Assembly (NCBI GenBank): GCA_020847855.1
Contig: JADLBH010000002.1
Coordinates: 1 to 64,000, forward strand
Direction: 5' to 3'
Source: Fimbriimonadaceae bacterium
GTDB taxonomy: Bacteria > Armatimonadota > Fimbriimonadia > Fimbriimonadales > Fimbriimonadaceae
Length of the DNA stretch: 64,000 nt
The notes under the pieces were generated by a model. It did no database searches, was not told the DNA's origin, and worked only from the letters and a program-made list of their open reading frames with translations. Below are positions 3,962-51,029 of the stretch, piece by piece. Positions within the stretch are counted from its first letter, which is position 1; every line of letters begins with the position of its first letter. The position numbers were made by a program, and so were the translations under genes.

Positions 3962-6178
3962 ATGTCCCAACCTGCCCCTTCCTCGAACACTGACTCCGAC
4001 CAACAAGGCGCCCTGCAGCGACTCTTGGGCCTGGCCGAGCAGATTTATGGGAAGGATCAGCGCGAACGGGTGAAGCGCGCCTATGAACTCGCCGAACGGG
4101 CGCACCTAGGACAATCCCGAAAGTCGGGAGAGCCTTACATCCTCCACCCGATCGAAGTTGCTTTGATCGTTGCCGAGCTTCGCATGGATGCGGACACCGT
4201 TGTCGCTGCCCTGCTTCACGACCTGCTCGAGGACACGGAAGTCACGATCGAGGAGGTTGCGAAGGAGTTTGGATCGGACGTGTCCGCCCTCGTCGAGTCG
4301 GTCACCAAACTGGGCTTGAACCTCTTGCCCGACGCAAGCCCCCGTCAGAGGCGGGCCGCCGAATCGGCCCGTGCGGCCGAGACCCTTCGCAAGATGCTCC
4401 TCGCGATGGCGAACGACGTCCGCGTCATGATCATCAAGCTCGCCGATCGGCTCCACAACATGCGGACGATCGAGTTCGTTCCCCCTGCCTCCCAGACGCG
4501 GATCGCGAACGAGACGCTCGAGGTATACGCACCGCTCGCGGCGCGCCTCGGGATATGGCAGCTGAAGTGGCAGCTCGAGGACCTAGCCTTCAAAGTGCTC
4601 CACCCCCGCGAGTTCCAGGAGATCAGCGACCTGGTCGCCAAGACGAGAGGGCAGAGGGAGGAGGAACTGCAGAAGGCGACCGCGGCGCTGCGCGCAATGC
4701 TCGACGAACGAGGCTTGCAGAACTGCTTGATCTCAAGTCGGCCCAAGCACCTCCACAGCATCTTCAACAAGATCGTGAAGGCGAACGTTAAGTTCGAGGA
4801 GATCTACGACCTCCAAGCGATGAGGGTCATCACGGAGACGAAGGACCAGTGCTACACGGTGCTCGGCATCGTCCACGACCTGTGGCAGCCCGTTCCCGGC
4901 CTGTTCTTCGACTATATCGCCTTGCCCAAGCCCAACGGCTACCAAAGCATCCATACCAAGGTGATGGGCCCGCACCGCTCCCCGATCGAGGTCCAGATTC
5001 GTAGCAAGGAGATGCACGAAGTGGCCGAGTTTGGCGTGGCCGCCCACTTCCACTACAAGGAGGGAACGAAGGAGCACGACCGCACCGCGATCCTGGGCAA
5101 GCAGCTTTTCGACTGGTCCGGCGAGAGCCAACTGTCCAGCGACTTTCTGCGGGCGGTCACAACCGACCTCTTCAGCGAGCAGGTCTTTGTCTTCACCCCG
5201 AAGGGCGACGTCCTCGACCTCCCAGCCGACTCGACCCCGATTGACTTCGCGTTCCGCGTGCACTCGGAGCTTGGTCTCCGGGTCGCTGGGGCCAAGATTA
5301 ATGGCTCCATCGTGCCCTTGGACACTAAGCTCAAGAACGGGGACGTGGTCGAGCTCGTGACGAGGTCGAACGCCCAACCCAGCCTCGACTGGCTGAAGTT
5401 CATCCGGAGCCAGCATGCAAAGAACAAGCTCCGATCCTACTTTCGCCGGCGCAACCGTGACGAGAACACCGCGCGCGGGAAAGAGGCCCTGGAGAAGGCG
5501 TTCCGCAGCGCGGGGTTCGACCCTCGCCAGATCCTGGGGGAGGGTCACATGGACGATCTCGCGCCACAGTTCAAGGACTGCGAGCACGCACAGGACGTTT
5601 TCGCCAGGGTCGGAGAGGGCCTGCTCGGCGTCCAGCACGTCGTACACAAGGTTCTGGGCCGGATCGTCAAGGATCAGCCCGGCATCTTCAGGCTCACGCA
5701 AGGCAAGGCGGAGCCGCAGGCGATCACGGGTGCGCTCGACAACGTGATGTATCGCCGGGCGAAGTGTTGCTCGCCAGTTCCTGGGGAGGACGTCGTCGGT
5801 TACGTCTCACGCGGCCGGGGCATCGTGATCCATCGCAGGCTCTGCCCCAACGCGCTGAAGTTCAGCGAGACTGCAGGCGAAGCGGAGCGGCTGACCCCGG
5901 TAGTATGGGAGCCGGACGGCACCGGATACGGAGTGCAGCTCAAGATCGTCGCCGTGAACCGACAGGGTCTTCTCATGGATATCTCGACGATCTTTGGGGA
6001 GTCCAAGGTGAACGTCTCTTCTGCCAGAATTCAGACGTTGCCGAACCATACGGCCGAGATTCTTGTTACGGTAGACGTGCCAGACATGCCTCAGCTTCAG
6101 TCGGTGATGAACAAGGTCGGTAGCTTCACGGACGTAATTTCCATTCTTCGTGCGTTCGGTAAGACCGGGGGTCGCTGA
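3962..6178 (+). CDS. rel: Bifunctional (p)ppGpp synthetase/hydrolase Rel
   Basis: The stringent-response enzyme that makes and degrades (p)ppGpp. Domain order is complete: HD hydrolase (LLHDLLEDT near residue 84), RelA/SpoT nucleotidyltransferase (YDLQAMRVI near 281), TGS domain (VFVFTPKGDV near 407) and a C-terminal ACT domain (about 660-738). The intact HD motif indicates a bifunctional long RSH. The ATG at 3962 has GGAAGGGA about 12 bases upstream; a GTG at 3932 is a possible alternative adding ten residues. The window also carries ppk1 and a Ppx/GppA-type enzyme, which often act with (p)ppGpp. Confidence 0.96.
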   Translation: MSQPAPSSNTDSDQQGALQRLLGLAEQIYGKDQRERVKRAYELAERAHLGQSRKSGEPYILHPIEVALIVAELRMDADTVVAALLHDLLEDTEVTIEEVAKEFGSDVSALVESVTKLGLNLLPDASPRQRRAAESARAAETLRKMLLAMANDVRVMIIKLADRLHNMRTIEFVPPASQTRIANETLEVYAPLAARLGIWQLKWQLEDLAFKVLHPREFQEISDLVAKTRGQREEELQKATAALRAMLDERGLQNCLISSRPKHLHSIFNKIVKANVKFEEIYDLQAMRVITETKDQCYTVLGIVHDLWQPVPGLFFDYIALPKPNGYQSIHTKVMGPHRSPIEVQIRSKEMHEVAEFGVAAHFHYKEGTKEHDRTAILGKQLFDWSGESQLSSDFLRAVTTDLFSEQVFVFTPKGDVLDLPADSTPIDFAFRVHSELGLRVAGAKINGSIVPLDTKLKNGDVVELVTRSNAQPSLDWLKFIRSQHAKNKLRSYFRRRNRDENTARGKEALEKAFRSAGFDPRQILGEGHMDDLAPQFKDCEHAQDVFARVGEGLLGVQHVVHKVLGRIVKDQPGIFRLTQGKAEPQAITGALDNVMYRRAKCCSPVPGEDVVGYVSRGRGIVIHRRLCPNALKFSETAGEAERLTPVVWEPDGTGYGVQLKIVAVNRQGLLMDISTIFGESKVNVSSARIQTLPNHTAEILVTVDVPDMPQLQSVMNKVGSFTDVISILRAFGKTGGR

Positions 6179-27150: not shown

Positions 27151-29250
27151 TCAATCCCTGGACGGCTCGGCGCCCAAGCCTAGCAGGCCCGCCGCAGGGT
27201 GCCCGGAAAGCTCGCGGTGCGACTCCCAGCCTCCCTCGACCCGCACCGGCTCGTAGCTTCCGTCGGGCAGGAGCCGCCACGCCTTGACTTGGTCGCGAAA
27301 GCCCGCGAGCACCACGTTCTCGCGGACGTAGCGGACATGCTCGGCCTCGCGCAATGGGACCAGAGCCTCGACCCGCCGATCGAGGTTCCTGCGCATCATG
27401 TCGCTGCTGCCGACCAGGGCCTCGGGAGCCCCACCATTCTCGAAGCAGTAGGCGCGACTATGCTCGAGGAACCGCCCCACCACGCTGACCACCTCGATGT
27501 TTTCACTCAGGCCTGGAACTCCGGGCCGCAAGCAACATATCCCGCGCACCGCTAGGCGCACTCGAACCCCGGCTCGGCTCGCCTCATATAGCGCGTCAAT
27601 GAGCTCAGGATCCACCAGGGCATTGACCTTGATCGCAATCTCGCCCCCTCCCGAGGTGCGGTGGATTGCAACTTCGCGTTCAATCTTGCCGATGATTTCG
27701 TCGCGCAGGTTGATCGGTGCGATGAGCAGCCGGCGGAACTCATCTTGCCGCGAGAAGCCCGTGAGATAGTTGAAGACCTCGCCGAGGTCGCGGCACACGT
27801 CCGGGTCGCAGGTGAGGAGGCCGAGGTCGGTGTAGAGCGCGGCGGTCGCGGGGTTGTAGTTGCCCGTCCCGATGTGGGCGTATTGGCGCACCCCGCCCGG
27901 CTCCTTGCGGACGATCAGCGCCAGCTTGCAGTGCACCTTGAGGTCCCGGAAGCCGTAGGTCACGTGGGCGCCCGCCTCCTCCAGCGCTTGCGACCATTGG
28001 AGGTTGTTGCCTTCGTCGAACCGCGCCTTCAGCTCGATCATCGCGGCGACCTGCTTGCCAGCTTCCGCCGCCCGCATCAGGCTCTCGACGATCGGAGAGC
28101 GCTCGCCCACGCGGTAGAGGGTCGCCTTGATCCCCAAGACGGCGGGGTCGGACGCCGCCGCTTCGAAGAACGTTTCGACGGGCCGGAAGCTGTCGTAGGG
28201 ATGGTGGAGCAGCACGTCGTGCTGGGACACGGTCTCGAAGAGTGACGCCGCGGAGTCGAGCCGCTCGAAGCGGACCGGGATGTGGCGCGGGTAGCGAAGC
28301 TCGGGAGCCTCCATCGCCGCGAGCTCCCAGCCGAACTCCAGCCCCAGGGGGCCCTCCGTGCGACGGAGGGCGGACTCTTCGAGGTCGAGCCCGTCAAGGA
28401 GCCGCCGCTCGACCTCGGACGGAGTGTCTGACCCGACCTCCAGGAGCACGGCGTCGCCGAACCGCCGCAACCGAAGCGTCTCCTCGACGGCGGTGATCAG
28501 GTCCGCCGCCTCCAGCTCACGAAGCTCGATATCGGCGTCCCGGACCACTCGGAACAGGCTGTGGCCCAGAACGTCCACCCCAGGGAAGAAGCTGCCGATG
28601 TGGGCGGCCAAGACGTCCTCGAGCAAGGCGAAGCGGCGGTCGGCGAGGCGAACGAGCCGCGGCAACACAGCCGGTACCTTGATCCGCGCCAGCCGGGACT
28701 CGTCCGCCGAATGGAGGAGGACCGCCAGGTTCAAGCTCCGGTTCGAGACGAACGGCACCGCACTGGGCGGGTCGAACAACAGCGGGGTGCAGACCGGGAA
28801 GATTTGGGTTCGGAAGTGCTCCGTTAGGGATACGTCCTCTTGGGCCGTCCACTCCTCGCGAGCCGCTACGACGATGCCGGCCTCGGCGAGCGCAGGGTGA
28901 AGGCCTCTCAGCCAGATTTCCGAAGCCGCCTCGCGGAGACTCGCTGCCACCTGGAAGCACATGTCCACTTGGGTGCCCGCGTCGAGTCCGTCCGGCGTCC
29001 GGTCGGCGATCCCGGCGTCCCGTTGCTCGATGAGCCCAGAGACGCGGACCATCAAGAACTCGTCGAGGTTGCTTTCGAAGATCGCGAGGAACTTCGCCCT
29101 TTCGAGGAGAGGGTTGGCCTCGTTGGCGGCCTCGGAGAGCACGCGCTCGTCGAAGGCGAGCCAGCTTAGCTCTCGGTTGAAGTAGCGCGGGTGCCCGCGC
29201 CACGCATTCGTTGCCTTACTGGACGTTATGGCCAGATCGCGGATTCTCAC
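27151..29250 (-). CDS. ppk1: Polyphosphate kinase 1
   Basis: Makes inorganic polyphosphate from ATP. The 699-residue length and the four-domain PPK1 plan fit: the N-terminal YFNRELSWLAFDERVL, a head domain, and two phospholipase-D-like catalytic domains. The autophosphorylated histidine is His459 in YAHIGTGNYN, and a second conserved histidine lies in FLEHSRAYCF. The frame begins with GTG without an obvious ribosome binding site, so the first ~20 residues are uncertain. A Ppx/GppA gene lies 2.5 kb upstream on the same strand, separated by a cassette on the opposite strand. Confidence 0.96.
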   Translation of the reverse strand: MRIRDLAITSSKATNAWRGHPRYFNRELSWLAFDERVLSEAANEANPLLERAKFLAIFESNLDEFLMVRVSGLIEQRDAGIADRTPDGLDAGTQVDMCFQVAASLREAASEIWLRGLHPALAEAGIVVAAREEWTAQEDVSLTEHFRTQIFPVCTPLLFDPPSAVPFVSNRSLNLAVLLHSADESRLARIKVPAVLPRLVRLADRRFALLEDVLAAHIGSFFPGVDVLGHSLFRVVRDADIELRELEAADLITAVEETLRLRRFGDAVLLEVGSDTPSEVERRLLDGLDLEESALRRTEGPLGLEFGWELAAMEAPELRYPRHIPVRFERLDSAASLFETVSQHDVLLHHPYDSFRPVETFFEAAASDPAVLGIKATLYRVGERSPIVESLMRAAEAGKQVAAMIELKARFDEGNNLQWSQALEEAGAHVTYGFRDLKVHCKLALIVRKEPGGVRQYAHIGTGNYNPATAALYTDLGLLTCDPDVCRDLGEVFNYLTGFSRQDEFRRLLIAPINLRDEIIGKIEREVAIHRTSGGGEIAIKVNALVDPELIDALYEASRAGVRVRLAVRGICCLRPGVPGLSENIEVVSVVGRFLEHSRAYCFENGGAPEALVGSSDMMRRNLDRRVEALVPLREAEHVRYVRENVVLAGFRDQVKAWRLLPDGSYEPVRVEGGWESHRELSGHPAAGLLGLGAEPSRD

Positions 29251-29455
29251 TCGTTGTGACTCACAGATTTCGGCAAGGGTTTGGGGTGGTACGCCCTGGT
29301 TCGCGAGAGGGCACCTAAGCCAATTCTTCTCTGAATCAGTCTACTTGGAGCAGCGCGCGAGCAACCGCTTCACCGAGCCTTGTGGAGATCGGAGTTGGAT
29401 CGGGTCCACGGGATTCGAATTGATACTAGGTCGAAAGCCCTAGAAGAACTTTGGC

Positions 29456-30046
29456 ATGGACTACATAATAAACTTCAGAGCCGATCATGATTCAGGTCAG
29501 GTCAGGTCAGGTCAGGTCAGGTCAGGTCAGGTCAGGTCAGGTCAGGTCAGTTGGTGGCTAGCCTTGGTAGCAACCGCACTGGCGATCCTAGTCTGTGCTC
29601 ACGCACGCTGGGGAGACGGCTGGCTGGCTCGACTTTTGGCTTCGGGTGCGCGGGTTGAGCAGAAGAGTCCAAGCTTGGGAACACCGATCCAGCTCCCAGC
29701 ATCGGACTCGTTAGGGCGCCCCCTCCATCGAGGACGGGAAACGGTGATCGTCTACGTGGGCGAATGCCAATCGTGCTCGATGAGCGCGTTCGAGCCCAGA
29801 AAACTACGATCCAGCAGACCAGCCCAGATCCTCGTACTGTCTTCAAGTCCTTCGACGCAACTTCCTTCGGCATTGACGAGTTCACCGGGTGTCTATGTGG
29901 TAGGGTTGCCGGTTGCGGCTGGAATGATTGCGGCGTTGGATCCTGAGGTCGCGCCTTGGACGTATGTGCTCGACTCGAATTCGCGACTGACATGGGTGGG
30001 AGATAGCCCGAAAGATATGCCGGAAGGAGTCACCTATGAGCAGTAG
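29456..30046 (+). CDS. Thioredoxin-like CxxC membrane protein with repeat-encoded N-terminus
   Basis: A 196-residue frame, first gene of a four-gene cassette. Residues 13-31 are encoded by a TCAGG pentanucleotide array and read as SGQVR repeats. A transmembrane helix follows (about 34-50), then an extracytoplasmic region of thioredoxin-like type (about 68-190) with a VYVGECQSCS motif (CxxC). Because five is not a multiple of three, gain or loss of one repeat unit would shift the reading frame. Start is uncertain: the ATG at 29456 has a poor ribosome binding site, and translation could also begin at a TTG after the repeat. It overlaps the next gene by 11 bp. Confidence 0.7.
   Translation: MDYIINFRADHDSGQVRSGQVRSGQVRSGQVSWWLALVATALAILVCAHARWGDGWLARLLASGARVEQKSPSLGTPIQLPASDSLGRPLHRGRETVIVYVGECQSCSMSAFEPRKLRSSRPAQILVLSSSPSTQLPSALTSSPGVYVVGLPVAAGMIAALDPEVAPWTYVLDSNSRLTWVGDSPKDMPEGVTYEQ
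29492..29550. repeat. Pentanucleotide tandem repeat (TCAGG x 11.8)
   Basis: Eleven perfect TCAGG units plus TCAG, without a single mismatch, span 59 bp. The array lies near the 5' end of the CxxC membrane protein gene. Perfect short tandem arrays of a unit not divisible by three are the hallmark of slipped-strand contingency loci. Confidence 0.97.
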
Positions 30047-30620
30047 GAGACGATCCGCATTGACCCTCACCGAGGTGATCGTTGTCGTGGCGATCGTCGT
30101 GACGCTAGCTGCTATAGTTTTCCCTACTTTCAGTAAGGCGAAGGATCGGACTAAGGAAGCAAAGTGCAGATCCAACCTTCGCCAGCTCTGGACAGGTCTT
30201 ATGCTCTATCGCGAGGCCGAGGGTGCGGTGGATACTCCTGCGGACGGTGTGAGCATGCGCTGGCCGATGCATCTGAGCTGCGTGATGTTCCCGGCTGACT
30301 GCTGGGAGAACAACCATCCGGAGATCTCCTGCGGCGGCGTCAATCCGCGACTGTTCCCACATGCCGGATACAGCCAAATGTGGGCTCAGCCCGCAACATC
30401 CCCCCTCTACAACAAGGCGCAGGAGGACGCGTGGATCGCGTACCTTGAAAAGGCGGGGAGTGGGGCCGTCATCATCAGCGATCCCAACCACCAATTGCAC
30501 TATCCGGCGAACCAGTGGACGATCCAGCGGGTCACGGCGGTAGCGTTCGACGGCAGTATACGAACGAGGATACGCCGCGGGAATCCTATGAACTATGCCT
30601 GGTGGCTGGACGGACAATAG
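30036..30620 (+). CDS. Prepilin-type N-terminal protein (pseudopilin-like)
   Basis: A 194-residue protein with a class III signal: basic leader (SSRRRSA), LTLTE with Glu at +5, and a long hydrophobic helix (VIVVVAIVVTLAAIVFP), followed by KAKDRTKEAKCRSNLRQL as in DUF1559-type or type II pseudopilins. Position -1 is Ala rather than the usual Gly. The C-terminal domain ends with a RVTAVAFDGSI strand pattern. GGAAGGAG lies seven bases before the ATG, the best ribosome binding site of the cassette. It sits between a CxxC protein and a Cys-rich peptide, so it may act in assembly or export of that peptide; this is inference. Confidence 0.82.
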   Translation: MSSRRRSALTLTEVIVVVAIVVTLAAIVFPTFSKAKDRTKEAKCRSNLRQLWTGLMLYREAEGAVDTPADGVSMRWPMHLSCVMFPADCWENNHPEISCGGVNPRLFPHAGYSQMWAQPATSPLYNKAQEDAWIAYLEKAGSGAVIISDPNHQLHYPANQWTIQRVTAVAFDGSIRTRIRRGNPMNYAWWLDGQ

Positions 30621-30690
30621 AACTGATAGGGCGAGGAGTTGGCTCGCGATCGGGAGCACGAATGAAGGACATGACGAGGAGAACAAGAAG

Positions 30691-31059
30691 ATGAAAAGAG
30701 TACGAGAACAAGGACAAGCCATTGGTAAGAAGCAAGGATCGTTCGCCAGAGTTTGGGCTGTTGCAGGGTTGGCATCTGTGTCGCTCGCGGCGGTGGCCGG
30801 ACTGTGCGACTGGACGTGGGTAGGAGGTTGTACGACCGTAGACTGCCAACGTATCTGGTGCGGGAAGGACGACCATATCAACACGATCGTCTATTGCCAA
30901 ACCCAGAACGAGGGCACCGTTTGTTGCCAGTGTACATTCGACTATTGGACTTGCAAAGGGAGCCTTCCCTGCCCCAACCCCTTTATGGTCGAGAAGAAAA
31001 AGCAGGAGACGCAAGGTGCGGAGTGCCAGGGGTCGCCTTCCCTGGAGTGTGTCTTCTAA
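30691..31059 (+). CDS. Exported 12-cysteine peptide
   Basis: A 122-residue protein. A long basic leader and hydrophobic helix (about 20-38, VWAVAGLASVSLAAVAG) form a signal peptide, and all twelve cysteines lie after it within about 80 residues, including a VCCQC cluster. An even cysteine number and none in the leader suggest six disulfides in an extracytoplasmic domain. GAGGAG lies ten bases before ATG. No family is recognised. The neighbouring CxxC membrane protein could be its oxidase or isomerase (inference). Methylamine dehydrogenase small subunits also carry about 12 cysteines, but no clear sequence match is seen. Confidence 0.7.
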   Translation: MKRVREQGQAIGKKQGSFARVWAVAGLASVSLAAVAGLCDWTWVGGCTTVDCQRIWCGKDDHINTIVYCQTQNEGTVCCQCTFDYWTCKGSLPCPNPFMVEKKKQETQGAECQGSPSLECVF

Positions 31060-31079
31060 GGCGGCGCAAGAGAGTAACC

Positions 31080-31742
31080 ATGGCAGAGAAGACGCGACTT
31101 GTCAGCAAGCGGGCTCAGGTGCTCCTAGGAGCCGCCGTCCTCCTCCTTTCAGGCATCTATGTTTGGAAGGGCGTTCGGCTCGGATCCGCGGACACTGCCG
31201 AGGCAGTCCTCTTCCAACTATTAGACGGTCGGACCGACGAGGTCTATCGCATGGCGACGCCTGAGGAGAAGGAGCATCTCACATTGGCCGAGTGGAAGCA
31301 GGTCTATCACGGGCTTATCGCACCACGGCTACGGCGATTCGACGTGGATCGTAAAGGGATGAAGTCTGCGAGCGGGGCTGGCGACTCCGTAGGGAACAAG
31401 TGGGTACAGTTCAACGGCTCGAATAAGGACACGCTTTCCACCGGGGTGACGGTGTGGATGTCCGAGCAGGGCGCGACGGGCCCGATGCTCATGTCTACGC
31501 TCGCCCTAGTTTGGAGGCTTGACTACCTGGAGAAGCACGGAACCGACTTTCGCAATGGGGGCCTTGCCCGCGCCTACTATGAGGGACTGCGAGCGGATCG
31601 TGGCGCTCTCGAGGCGGCGGGACTCCGAGGTATCTATTTCTCACCAAGCGAAGGCTTCCTCGACTTCGACCAGGCGGAAGACCGCTGGAAGAAGCGGATC
31701 GAAGCAGGCGAGGCACAGGCGGTCAAAGGCACCACTTCTTGA
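31080..31742 (+). CDS. Membrane-anchored protein of the Cys-rich cassette, unknown
   Basis: A 220-residue protein with a short basic N-terminus, one transmembrane segment (about 12-29) and a soluble domain beginning with DTAEAVLFQLLDGRTDEVYRMATPEEKEHLT. It resembles small DUF4878- or NTF2-like accessory domains in its helical start followed by strands, but no family is certain. It begins 21 bp after the Cys-rich gene. Its 3' end overlaps the convergent Ppx/GppA gene by 20 bp, so it closes the cassette. Confidence 0.7.
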   Translation: MAEKTRLVSKRAQVLLGAAVLLLSGIYVWKGVRLGSADTAEAVLFQLLDGRTDEVYRMATPEEKEHLTLAEWKQVYHGLIAPRLRRFDVDRKGMKSASGAGDSVGNKWVQFNGSNKDTLSTGVTVWMSEQGATGPMLMSTLALVWRLDYLEKHGTDFRNGGLARAYYEGLRADRGALEAAGLRGIYFSPSEGFLDFDQAEDRWKKRIEAGEAQAVKGTTS

Positions 31743-32664
31743 ACCCTCCGCAGGCCATTTCTAGTACGGCGCCCTCGCGCACGCCGTATTCGCTGACCGT
31801 GACCTTGTCCAGGGACGCGGACGCCATGACTTCGAGGAACACCAGTGCACCGGGCAGCAGCGTAGCGGCCCGTTGCGGCTTGACGCGGAACCTGGCCTCG
31901 ACTTGCGACCGCGTGAGCCCAGCGGTCGCCCAGGCGAGGTACTCGAGCTCCTGGCGATGGAGGGCCCGTTCGCCGTCCGGGTGAAGCGCCCGCACGAGCC
32001 CCCTCGCAACCCCCCCGCTCGCCACGAGCCTAACGACCCCATCGAAATGGGAACGGGGGGGCAAGGATCGCCGAATGTATTCGCGAACCCGTACCACGCT
32101 CTCCTCGTCGGTAGGTTGAACCAGGTTCATCTCCGCCTTCAGCGTCCCGGTCCCGAGTCGTAGCGAGCGCTCCCAAACCGCCCGGTCCTCGACGAACCTC
32201 GCGAGTTGAACGCTGCCGCCCCCGCATTCGGCAAACAGCGCCGGGCTCGGCCCGTCGGAGTCCAGCAGAGCGCCTCGGAGACCGAGTTCGGCCTCGCGCT
32301 CGGGCTTGACGATCTCGACAGGGAGTCCGGTCTTGGCCTCGATCCGCTCGGCCAGCGCGGTTGCACCTTCCGCGCGTCGGAACGACTCGGTTGCGAAGAG
32401 GTAACAGCCCTTGGCCTCGCAGTCCTTGCTGACTTGGACGAACCGCGCGACGGCCCTGCTGACCGACTTGGCCAAAGCGCTAGGGATCGCGCCTTCACGG
32501 GCTACCGCCTCGCCAAGGCCCACCCAAACGGAACGATCCTCCAGTTCCTCGAGCCCGCCGCGATCCACCCGGGCGACCAAGAGGTGGACGGTGTTGCTCC
32601 CGATATCGGCGGCGGCGAAGACGTTTGCCAGTGGTTCGAAGAGTATTCCAATCGTCCTTCGCAT
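31723..32664 (-). CDS. Ppx/GppA phosphatase family protein
   Basis: An ASKHA-fold enzyme that degrades polyphosphate or pppGpp. The 313-residue length matches the short two-domain Ppx form. The family motifs ADIGSNTVHLLVA (about 19-31), LFATESFRRA, EAELGLRG and ECGGGSVQLA are present. With ppk1 nearby and rel in the window, both substrates are plausible. It probably once adjoined ppk1. Its 3' end overlaps the oppositely oriented cassette gene by 20 bp. Confidence 0.9.
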   Translation of the reverse strand: MRRTIGILFEPLANVFAAADIGSNTVHLLVARVDRGGLEELEDRSVWVGLGEAVAREGAIPSALAKSVSRAVARFVQVSKDCEAKGCYLFATESFRRAEGATALAERIEAKTGLPVEIVKPEREAELGLRGALLDSDGPSPALFAECGGGSVQLARFVEDRAVWERSLRLGTGTLKAEMNLVQPTDEESVVRVREYIRRSLPPRSHFDGVVRLVASGGVARGLVRALHPDGERALHRQELEYLAWATAGLTRSQVEARFRVKPQRAATLLPGALVFLEVMASASLDKVTVSEYGVREGAVLEMACGGFKKWCL

Positions 32665-38889: not shown

Positions 38890-39810
38890 TTGGCTAGCAA
38901 GAACCTATCAAAGACCCCGGCGAACTTCAACGCCTGGTTCACGACGTTCCACAAAACGTTCAACAAGCAGTACAAGAAGCACGGCTTCTCTGCCTCCGAC
39001 CTCCGCAACTTCAACAGCGTGTACAAGGCCTGGCAGAACTCCTACGCTTCCTACAACAGCTTCAACGCATTCTTCAACAACTGGAGCAAGATGAACGCAC
39101 AGCAGTTCAGCAGCTTCCAGTCGTTCGTTTCCGCCTATTGGAGCGCGTTCCAGGGCAGTTCGACTTCCACCAGCAGCAAGCCTGTTGCCAAGAAGACGAC
39201 GGCCAAGAAAACCGCCACCAAGAAGACGGCTGCGAAGAAGACGACCGTGAAGAAGTCGGCTCCGAAGAAGGCTACGGCCAAAAAGGCTACGACCAAGAAG
39301 GCGACGACCAAGAAGGTGACCGGTCCCAGCAAGGTGACCGTCGCCAAGAAGTCGGCTCCGATCAAGAAGAGCACCGCCGCCAAGGCGAGCCCGCGAACGA
39401 CCAAGGGCACGACGAAGCGCACGATCAAGAAGACGACCGCCAAGAAGGCCGTCAAGAAGACAACCGCGAAGGCCAGCGTCCGAAAGACCGCCGCGAAGAG
39501 CAACAACAGCTTCGCGGCGCCTTTCGTTTGGCTGACCAACGGCCGCAAGTCGGGCCAGATCAACGTCTGGGTCGGTGCGAGCAAGAACGGTGGCTTCCAC
39601 CTGCCCAGCGGCGCAACCGCCGCGTTCGTCCAGTACCGCACCAAGGGTCGCGCCTGGCGCACCCTGACCCAGGGCTCCAACTTCCCGTTCGTCCACGCGT
39701 TCTCGGGCAACAAGGTCTGGTACCGCGCTTGCTGGATCAGCAAGAGCGGCAACAGCAACTGGAGCAAGGGCGTCACCTATACGGTGGGCTCGAGCAAGAA
39801 GGCCGCGTAA
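38890..39810 (+). CDS. Histone-H1-like tripartite protein
   Basis: A 306-residue protein in three parts. Residues 1-92 are rich in Phe, Asn, Tyr and Trp with repeated FN-x-W/Y units and look helical. Residues 97-203 are a low-complexity Lys/Ala/Thr tail built on KKTTAKK-type repeats, as in histone H1 and bacterial HctB-like proteins, and probably bind DNA or other polyanions. Residues 208-306 are a beta-rich domain (FVWLTNGRKSGQINVWVG, YRACWISKSGNSNWSKG) reminiscent of fibronectin type III. The start is TTG with AGAGGG upstream. A strong terminator follows. The combination is not one I recognise. Confidence 0.85.
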   Translation: MASKNLSKTPANFNAWFTTFHKTFNKQYKKHGFSASDLRNFNSVYKAWQNSYASYNSFNAFFNNWSKMNAQQFSSFQSFVSAYWSAFQGSSTSTSSKPVAKKTTAKKTATKKTAAKKTTVKKSAPKKATAKKATTKKATTKKVTGPSKVTVAKKSAPIKKSTAAKASPRTTKGTTKRTIKKTTAKKAVKKTTAKASVRKTAAKSNNSFAAPFVWLTNGRKSGQINVWVGASKNGGFHLPSGATAAFVQYRTKGRAWRTLTQGSNFPFVHAFSGNKVWYRACWISKSGNSNWSKGVTYTVGSSKKAA

Positions 39811-48739: not shown

Positions 48740-49822
48740 ATGTCTAGACTCCGCCAGTTGCTCGAACACGTCGTCGAGGTAGACGCGAGCGACCTTCACC
48801 TCAAGGCGAACAACCCGCCCATCATCCGTCTTCGCGGCGGGCTCCACCGGCTCGATCAGCCTGCCTTCTCGGCGGACGAACTGCGCAACGAGCTCTTCTC
48901 CGTCCTCACCCCCGAGCGGCGCGATCGGCTCGACAGCTACAAGGAGTGCGACCTCAGCCATGCCGTGCCGGGCCTGGCTCGATTCCGCGTCAACATGTAC
49001 TGGCAGCGAGGGTTGCCCGGAGCGGTCTTCCGACTCATCCCCTACAAGATCCGCACGATTGACGACCTGCGGATGCCGCAGGTCACCAAGAAGATCTCGC
49101 TGCTCCCGCGCGGGCTCGTGCTGGTCACCGGGCCCACGGGCAGCGGGAAATCCACCAGCCTCGCCGCGATGATCAACCACATCAACGAGACGACCCGGAG
49201 GCACATCATCACGATCGAGGACCCGATCGAGTACGTCCACCCCGACCGGGCCAGCATCATCAACCAGCGCGAACTCGGGACGGACACGAACAGCTTCGCC
49301 GACGCCCTGAAGCACGTGATGAGGCAGAATCCCGACGTGATCCTGGTCGGTGAGATGCGCGATCTGGAGACGATTCAGCTGGCGATCACGGCGGCGGAGA
49401 CCGGGCACCTAGTCTTCAGCACCCTCCATACGGTGGACTGCGCCCAGACGATAGACCGTATCGTGGACGTCTTCGACCCCGAACAGCAAGAGCAGATCCG
49501 AACGCAGCTCTCGGTCACTCTCCAGGCCGTCGTTTCCCAGGCCCTCCTCCCCACGAAGGACGGAACGGGACGGGTCGCCGCCTTCGAGGTGATGGTCGCG
49601 ACGCCGAGCATCAAGACCATGATCCGGGAAGGCAAGACCCACTCGCTCTACCATGACATTCAGACCGGTGCCGAGCACGGGATGCAGACCCTCGACAATG
49701 CACTGCTCGGCCTGGTGAAGGACGGGAGCATTGACTACGAGATGGCCCACTCCAAGTCTTCGCTGCCGCAAGAGTTCGCCACTCGTGCAGCCAACCTTGG
49801 ACTGGAGGGCGCCCGTGCTTGA
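48740..49822 (+). CDS. pilT: PilT-family ATPase 1
   Basis: A 360-residue type IV pilus retraction-type ATPase. The N-terminal PAS-like domain (DASDLHLKANNPPIIRLRGGL), Walker A GPTGSGKST (131-139), the Asp box IEDPIEYVH, Walker B NPDVILVGEMRDLETI, the His box HLVFSTLHTVD and a degenerate AIRNLIRE motif (IKTMIREGKTHSLY) are present. PilT powers pilus retraction and twitching. It overlaps the second pilT gene by 8 bp, so both are made from one mRNA. Confidence 0.93.
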   Translation: MSRLRQLLEHVVEVDASDLHLKANNPPIIRLRGGLHRLDQPAFSADELRNELFSVLTPERRDRLDSYKECDLSHAVPGLARFRVNMYWQRGLPGAVFRLIPYKIRTIDDLRMPQVTKKISLLPRGLVLVTGPTGSGKSTSLAAMINHINETTRRHIITIEDPIEYVHPDRASIINQRELGTDTNSFADALKHVMRQNPDVILVGEMRDLETIQLAITAAETGHLVFSTLHTVDCAQTIDRIVDVFDPEQQEQIRTQLSVTLQAVVSQALLPTKDGTGRVAAFEVMVATPSIKTMIREGKTHSLYHDIQTGAEHGMQTLDNALLGLVKDGSIDYEMAHSKSSLPQEFATRAANLGLEGARA

Positions 49823-51029
49823 CGTTCGGGCCCTCCTGCGCAGATGTGTGCAGATGGACGGCTCTGATCTGCATATCAAGTCCGACACCGGGAAAGCGTA
49901 CATCAGGGTGTATGGGGATTTGATCCTGCTCGAGGACGTTCCCGAGTTCACTCAAGAAGATCTGATCGCGGCCTTGCCGGGATTGATCCGACCCGACCAG
50001 CAGGAGGCGTTCGAGGCCGAGTACGAACTCGACTTCTCGCTCGAAATCGAGGGAGTTTCCCGGTTTCGAGGCAACCTTTATCGCCAACGCGAGAACATCC
50101 AAGCCGCGTTCCGTGTGATCCCCTATACGATTTCCACCATGGAGGAGCTCGATCTTCCCAAGGTGTGTTATGACTTTATCCTTCGACCTCGCGGCCTAGT
50201 CTTGGTCACGGGTCCGGCGGGGAGCGGCAAGTCCACGACTCTCGCCGCCATGATAGATCGGATCAACCGCACGCAGGACGTCCACATCGTGACCGTCGAG
50301 GACCCGGTCGAGTTCGTTCACGACGACCATGTCGCACTGCTGAACCAGCGCGAGCTTTCTATTGACACTCTGTCCTTTGCCAACGCGCTCAAGCATGTCT
50401 TGCGGCAGGATCCGGACGTGATCCTCGTAGGTGAAATGCGCGACCTGGAGACAATCCATTTGGCGATCACAGCCGCCGAGACCGGCCACCTTGTATTCGC
50501 CACGCTCCACACGGTGGACGCGGTTCAGACCGTGGACAGAATCGTGGACGTGTTCCCCATGCACCAGCAACAGCAGATCCGCATGCAACTGTCCGTGAAT
50601 CTGCTCGGCGTGATCAGCCAGACCTTGGTGAAGAAGAAGAACGGGGACGGTCGTGCTGCGGCCTTCGAAGTTCTCAATGCGACGAGCGCAGTGCGGAACC
50701 AGATCCGAGAGAACAAGACATACCAGATCTCTTCGATTATCCAAACCGGTACGAAGCAAGGGATGCAGACGCTCGACCAGTCCCTCGCACGGCTCGTGGA
50801 TCGCGGTCTTGTCGCACTCGACGATGCACGGATGAAGGCGAAAGACGTCGGCGAGTTTGCGAGGCTCGTAAACCTAGGCAACAAGAGCCCAACGGGAGGC
50901 GGGGGGGGTTCAGGTGCGCCTGGCCCAACGGCCCCGGCTCCGCCGGGGCCTGAGAACGGGGAGCATGCAGCGGCTCCGACGAATGCGGTTCGCGGACAGC
51001 CGAACCGTCCGGGTTACAAGCGCGATTAG
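49815..51029 (+). CDS. pilT: PilT-family ATPase 2 with Pro/Gly-rich tail
   Basis: A 404-residue paralogue of the preceding protein. All PilT motifs are present: DGSDLHIKSDTGKAYIRV, Walker A GPAGSGKST (133-141), VEDPVEFVH, DPDVILVGEMRDLETIHLAI, HLVFATLHTVDAVQTVDRIV and VRNQIRENKTYQISSIIQTG. The sequence has diverged from PilT1 along its whole length, and it adds about 45 residues of Gly/Pro/Ala-rich tail. The GTG at 49815 has GGAGGG seven bases upstream and overlaps the previous stop. PilU-like division of labour is likely but unproven. Confidence 0.92.
   Translation: MLDVRALLRRCVQMDGSDLHIKSDTGKAYIRVYGDLILLEDVPEFTQEDLIAALPGLIRPDQQEAFEAEYELDFSLEIEGVSRFRGNLYRQRENIQAAFRVIPYTISTMEELDLPKVCYDFILRPRGLVLVTGPAGSGKSTTLAAMIDRINRTQDVHIVTVEDPVEFVHDDHVALLNQRELSIDTLSFANALKHVLRQDPDVILVGEMRDLETIHLAITAAETGHLVFATLHTVDAVQTVDRIVDVFPMHQQQQIRMQLSVNLLGVISQTLVKKKNGDGRAAAFEVLNATSAVRNQIRENKTYQISSIIQTGTKQGMQTLDQSLARLVDRGLVALDDARMKAKDVGEFARLVNLGNKSPTGGGGGSGAPGPTAPAPPGPENGEHAAAPTNAVRGQPNRPGYKRD

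Follow-up and report, generated by a model that had tools for sequence, protein, structure and literature searches.

A recurring cassette with a pseudopilin, a thioredoxin-like protein and a cysteine-rich exported protein in Armatimonadota

Among the closest described relatives of the locus presented here are the pseudopilins of type IV filaments and type II secretion systems (T2SS), including GspG, PilA, ComGC and DUF1559 proteins. One of its products, PIL, shares with them the prepilin motif, the invariant glutamate and about 65 GspG-like residues. PIL differs in its C-terminal domain (DxNH, G...WW) and scores far below the GspG cut-off; moreover, GspG is encoded in a secretion operon, whereas PIL is encoded with a cysteine-rich protein (CysR). 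The Verru_Chthon cassette (TIGR02596-02600) also includes a prepilin-type protein, but the remaining products of the locus (TrxL, CysR and ANC) match none of its other members. CcmG, DsbE and TlpA resemble TrxL in the single transmembrane (TM) anchor, the CxxC motif and the thioredoxin-like profile. Proteins of the CcmG/DsbE type are usually reductases; their context is cytochrome c maturation, whereas TrxL is encoded in a pilin cassette. In methylamine dehydrogenase maturation (MauA light chain with MauD/MauE), a small exported disulfide-rich protein likewise has a membrane thioredoxin-like protein nearby, as CysR has TrxL, but that system is without a pilin and the cassette is without a MauE-like gene. 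The NTF2-like superfamily, including VirB8-like assembly factors, is a candidate relative of ANC, whose model resembles it over part of the chain; Pfam contains no sequence relative of ANC.

The locus lies in the window, the whole 64-kb stretch of DNA that was analysed (Table 1). The initial annotation had described four adjacent plus-strand genes at 29456-31742, and the open reading frame coordinates agree with it: TrxL and PIL overlap by 11 bp, and gaps of 70 bp and 20 bp separate PIL from CysR and CysR from ANC. Its count of 12 cysteines in the exported peptide is also correct. The lower GC content that it noted by eye is borne out, since the cassette (0.582, against a mean of 0.637, sd 0.023) is the lowest of 124 equal-sized windows in the 64 kb. 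It had further recognised no named system, and indeed the TrxL-PIL-CysR-ANC combination is absent from the family libraries; in a Pfam and NCBIfam scan of the window cassette the prepilin N-terminus was the sole part recognised. A scan for promoters and terminators at the cassette gave nothing above the shuffle background. The present analysis adds to that description a TCAGG array, a split gppA-ppk pair, additional copies elsewhere in this genome and a candidate NTF2-like fold for ANC.

Table 1. Features of the cassette and its flanks in the window
Feature	Position	Strand	Description
ppk1, flank	27151-29250	-	family match
Inserted segment (whole)	29251-31722	+	between ppk start (29250) and gppA end (31723)
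TrxL	29456-30046	+	membrane thioredoxin-like ORF, CQSC, one TM segment
TCAGG array in TrxL 5' coding end	29492-29550	+	TRF; putative slippage (phase-variation) site
PIL	30036-30620	+	prepilin-type protein, GspG-like N-terminus, divergent C-terminal domain
CysR	30691-31059	+	Sec-type leader and ~83-aa 12-Cys domain
ANC	31080-31742	+	one TM helix and candidate NTF2-like domain
gppA/ppx, flank	31723-32664	-	family match

The cassette has been inserted between gppA and ppk. It lies on the strand opposite to both. Of 15 relatives searched, 14 yielded ppk, and every one of these has gppA immediately upstream of it in the same orientation. Other copies occupy other sites: that of L018 lies within what we take to be a nuo operon, and those of L016 and L019 lie beside a presumed lysS, the flanking genes having been named from their sequences. 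Terminal inverted repeats and a target duplication were not found at the insertion ends, nor was a transposase at the cassette.

The TrxL-PIL-CysR-ANC arrangement is a recurring, conserved unit across Armatimonadota. A search with CysR returned four clear relatives in three other genera, all in the same cassette. With the pilin profile, 34 subfamily members were found in 24 of 85 family genomes, and automated inspection identified the order PIL-CysR-ANC in 25 non-redundant loci; TrxL is immediately upstream, often with a 4-bp overlap, in 16 of the 25, as recognised by the first filter. Starting from the other end, the region upstream of the 30 best ANC loci contains a subfamily pilin in 28, CysR in 22 and TrxL in 21. 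This recurrence of order (25 loci; 28/30 with a pilin on the ANC side) rules out chance adjacency of the four genes. Matches to the TrxL profile occur in 64 of 291 genomes of the phylum at E <= 1e-6 (weaker matches inspected in part), and a search with the pilin alignment found a further relative in JAKOXK010000058.1, from an Armatimonadota MAG. Of 397 genomes searched for ANC, 64 gave a match, each of them within Armatimonadota; since the phylum holds 291 genomes, at least ~106 of those searched lie outside it, and in none of these was ANC found.

Pieces of the cassette adjoin in ten family-level groups (f1, f2, f3, f5, f8, f12, f18, f22, f23 and f25). The order is permuted to TrxL-CysR-ANC-PIL in f18 and f22 (L121, L117), units are in tandem in L119 and L122, and L018 has two copies of ANC. 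That the pieces co-occur despite reordering speaks for a functional unit. The pairwise distances of the four proteins also correlate across loci (Mantel r 0.62-0.83, p 2e-4), which fits joint inheritance, a test of this kind not separating functional linkage from shared ancestry. The initial annotation had named scattered homologues, or a cysteine-rich frame not conserved in relatives, as findings that would speak against it; instead, the homologues occur together and the cysteines occupy conserved positions. Incomplete units were also observed. The TrxL-PIL-ANC unit of L109 (G074:C47) leaves no room for CysR between PIL and ANC; CysR may have been lost there, or the cargo may be encoded elsewhere. 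In L044/L036 (G068:C3) and L045 (G174:C20), the CysR gene is broken by a stop or, apparently, by a frameshift, although the units are otherwise recognisable.

TrxL has a TM segment and, from sequence and profile, the fold of a membrane-anchored CxxC thioredoxin-like protein of the CcmG/DsbE/TlpA kind. GxCxxC is invariant in 14 members and L161 and a PR motif are near-invariant; the CxxC is degenerate in some distant families (L118, L122). The window protein matched no Pfam family, Redoxin was matched by 8 of the 14 members (best 1.2e-5), and the best match of the TrxL profile in the PDB is DsbE/CcmG (E 2.8e-5).

PIL has the leader of a type IV prepilin, with the prepilin glutamate invariant in 22 members. 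Its first ~65 residues are GspG-like and are followed by a domain of its own with conserved DxNH and G...WW. PF07963 is found in 21 of the 22; the window PIL scores 18 bits against it and 21.2 in the genome scan (at the cut-off). TIGR01710 gives 30.2 bits on the window PIL, over residues 9-72 only, against an equivalog cut-off of 88.85, so that PIL is not the major pseudopilin GspG of a T2SS. Matches to PF07596 (DUF1559/H-X9-DG) were obtained for 5 of the 22 (best 1.5e-5), the window PIL having none, and weak matches to TIGR02596 likewise for 5 of the 22. Membership of the Verru_Chthon cassette, in which members A-D occur together, was rejected, the matches being just weak pilin ones (TIGR02596/TIGR02599). 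The N-terminus of PIL best matches the Geobacter geopilin, and two cysteines, C44 and C99, are conserved in the closest five members.

All 12 cysteines of the window CysR align with those of its four closest relatives, one being displaced in L017. Over 23 members, eight cysteine columns are near-invariant and the rest of the protein diverges. The mature cysteine count is even in 22 of 28 members (one-sided p 0.0019), and C39 and C81 of the window protein are gained or lost together (phi 0.93). The even counts and the paired gain and loss therefore suggest that CysR is probably a secreted, disulfide-bonded protein, its disulfide pairs being derived solely from the paired gain and loss of cysteines. 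An AF2 model contains three long beta strands (pLDDT about 77-95 over residues 61-122). No relative of CysR was found in Pfam, NCBIfam or the PDB, and Foldseek found no match to the model. Against the PDB, the 5-member profile gave no match and the 23-member profile a single one at chance level, to a phospholipase (E 7.6); with nothing credible from either, membership of the MauA family (methylamine dehydrogenase light chain) was rejected. So was a c-type cytochrome, as CxxCH is absent from all 25 members inspected. No pilin-like leader or lipobox pattern is common to the CysR proteins. Another kind of cysteine-rich peptide was seen in L040 (G032:C1:1871000-1882000, 288-1394 and 1710-2833): two tandem copies of an exported 9-Cys peptide, each ~15 bp before a different prepilin with an H-X9-DG-like C-terminus.

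ANC looks NTF2-like in its AF2 model, which contains a confident domain (pLDDT 93.7). The best Foldseek match is the NTF2-like 3k7c (prob 1.00, E 4.6e-3, TM 0.32/0.55, the 0.32 by query, over a partial chain alignment), and VirB8-like domains are matched weakly. The parts of the cassette belong to known superfamilies, ANC as a candidate member; the exception is CysR, for which the libraries searched yielded nothing recognisably related. A literature search found no paper on a combination of pseudopilin, cysteine-rich protein and thioredoxin, nor on a pairing of cysteine-rich proteins with pili in Armatimonadota.

The same genome (assembly of 2.53 Mb, 97% complete) contains 39 prepilin motif matches. 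By a filter-based count, an exported cysteine-rich ORF follows 8 of the 39 and is missing after the other 31; such neighbours are therefore a feature of a subset of prepilins and not of prepilins generally. TrxL precedes three of the 39, in the window, C27 and C13. Units without TrxL are found on C28, C5 and C11. At the start of C28 (G000:C28:1-7000, L144), three PIL units are in tandem, with ANC in each and a cysteine-rich ORF in at least two, and C5 has a PIL-CysR-ANC unit. Filament ATPases of the PilB/GspE type are also encoded in the genome, together with a single prepilin peptidase and a single VKOR. Two adjacent genes for T2SSE-domain (PilT-like) ATPases lie in the window itself, at 49091-50687.

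The 5' end of TrxL contains a perfect TCAGG array of 11.8 copies (TRF), and (GGTCA)4 occurs solely there in the whole assembly. As in a contingency locus, the frame is decided by tandem repeats of non-triplet length near the start of the coding sequence: counting from the ATG, 8, 11 or 14 copies keep TrxL in frame, and 9, 10, 12, 13 or 15 lead to loss of the frame and a stop after 31-70 codons. TrxL could also be started from a TTG downstream of the array. Two other TrxL genes, both from G068, have at the same place arrays that are unrelated to TCAGG and are frame-shifting (GCTCT x7 and GGAGCCCA x5). In 605 kb of non-redundant DNA, three of the seven such arrays fall in the TrxL 5' zone, which makes up 1.9% of the DNA (binomial P 2e-4), in a test devised after the window array had been seen and with two of the three arrays coming from one genome (G068); with the window array set aside, the same formula gives two of six and P of about 0.005. 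Because unrelated frame-shifting arrays recur at the same place in TrxL, the sequences suggest that its expression is phase-variable through repeat slippage. In other bacteria, frame switching driven by repeats is a familiar phenomenon (PMC2651432, PMC6321876). Further repeats were observed. In L153 (583-617, G000:C5), GCCCATG x5 lies in the N-terminus of an exported protein beside a PIL-CysR-ANC unit, possibly a second switchable gene in the genome of the window. L147 (G000:C20) has two CT x12 tracts (2921-2944 and 4802-4825), ~1.9 kb apart, with near-identical sequence after each. At 39187-39499 of the window, 15-bp tandem repeats (GCCAAGAAGACGACG) would encode a Lys/Ala/Thr-rich tail of AKKTT type, histone H1-like.

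With a probability of about one half, the cassette is a self-contained, relocatable accessory to a type IV filament or type II secretion-like machine, folding a disulfide-rich protein and exporting or displaying it. The machine that it needs is presumably an ordinary one, and for this reason we group the cassette with type IV filament systems. CysR would leave the cytoplasm by Sec, and its folding on the other side would give a small beta domain held by 4-6 disulfides. TrxL, membrane-anchored and with its CxxC, may act as a thiol-disulfide helper alongside VKOR, the general oxidant of the genome. PIL would be processed by the prepilin peptidase and enter a pseudopilus driven by resident PilB/GspE-type ATPases. 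From the genetic linkage and the presence of filament ATPases and a prepilin peptidase, we infer that PIL is a dedicated pseudopilin that carries its own CysR or displays it at the cell surface. ANC might hold CysR or PIL at the inner membrane before export, and slippage of the array at the start of TrxL would probably switch expression. The initial annotation had proposed a small export and oxidative-folding system in which TrxL pairs the cysteines of CysR. An exported, disulfide-bonded CysR is supported by cysteines gained and lost in pairs, but the proposal of TrxL as the disulfide maker is weakened by relatives that are usually reductases, by a separate VKOR and by PIL-CysR-ANC units that do without TrxL. 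Against the accessory unit itself we count these same TrxL-less units and reductase relatives, the CysR-less L109 and the 31 of 39 prepilins with no cysteine-rich ORF.

A subunit of a surface filament, or a toxin-immunity unit, would agree equally with the linkage and with the correlation of distances. PIL and CysR might themselves build an adhesin-like surface filament or tip that is specific to the cassette, with disulfides matured by TrxL and a base anchored by ANC; switching and the rapid divergence of CysR would then reflect pressure from phage, predators or surfaces. A dedicated pilin in nearly every unit, the conserved C44 and C99 of its closest members, a CysR that diverges around constant cysteines, and the fact that repeat arrays usually serve surface structures that vary in phase (PMC2651432, PMC6321876) argue for such a filament. 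We nevertheless consider it rather unlikely, as CysR proteins, sharing neither a pilin-like leader nor a lipobox, would have to join the filament non-covalently. To our knowledge, no filament has a CysR-like subunit of that kind. More doubtful still is an antagonistic role, in which the cell would secrete CysR as an antibacterial protein or bacteriocin and ANC would confer immunity to it at the membrane, with TrxL and PIL as helpers in maturation and export and with several different units per genome providing specificity. The multiple copies, their mobility and a fast-diverging cargo beside a membrane-anchored partner agree with it, as do the two ANC copies of L018 and the tandem units, but no bacteriocin family was matched in Pfam or NCBIfam, there was no match in PADLOC (a library of defence systems only), and CysR-ANC distances correlate no better than PIL-ANC distances. 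Anti-phage defence was rejected, since no PADLOC model matched.

Pilins that help to export cytochrome filaments are known, and CysR could in principle bind a metal or carry electrons, with its thiols kept reduced by TrxL and the pilin serving for conduction or positioning. The proximity of the TrxL profile to CcmG/DsbE reductases and that of the PIL N-terminus to the geopilin would suit such a redox function, which we regard as highly improbable in view of the missing CxxCH and of cysteines that vary in pairs, as disulfides do. Returning to the accessory unit, a broader view can be offered tentatively, as a possibility that falls somewhat short of even odds: a hitherto undescribed class of movable secretion units spread through the phylum. 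Every cargo, disulfide-rich and fast-evolving, would have its own pseudopilin and membrane partner, several different units per genome would share one filament machine, and some would be phase-variable through frame-shifting repeats in TrxL.

The Armatimonadota are known more for environmental than for host-associated bacteria, and their genomes contain dozens of prepilin genes each, 39 by motif in the present case. The unit gives part of these prepilins a concrete partner, a secreted and probably disulfide-bonded family without a known relative. If the switching by repeats is true, it adds such a locus in Armatimonadota. If the pseudopilin is cargo-specific, the cassette would be a module through which a pilus-type machine could take on new cargo.
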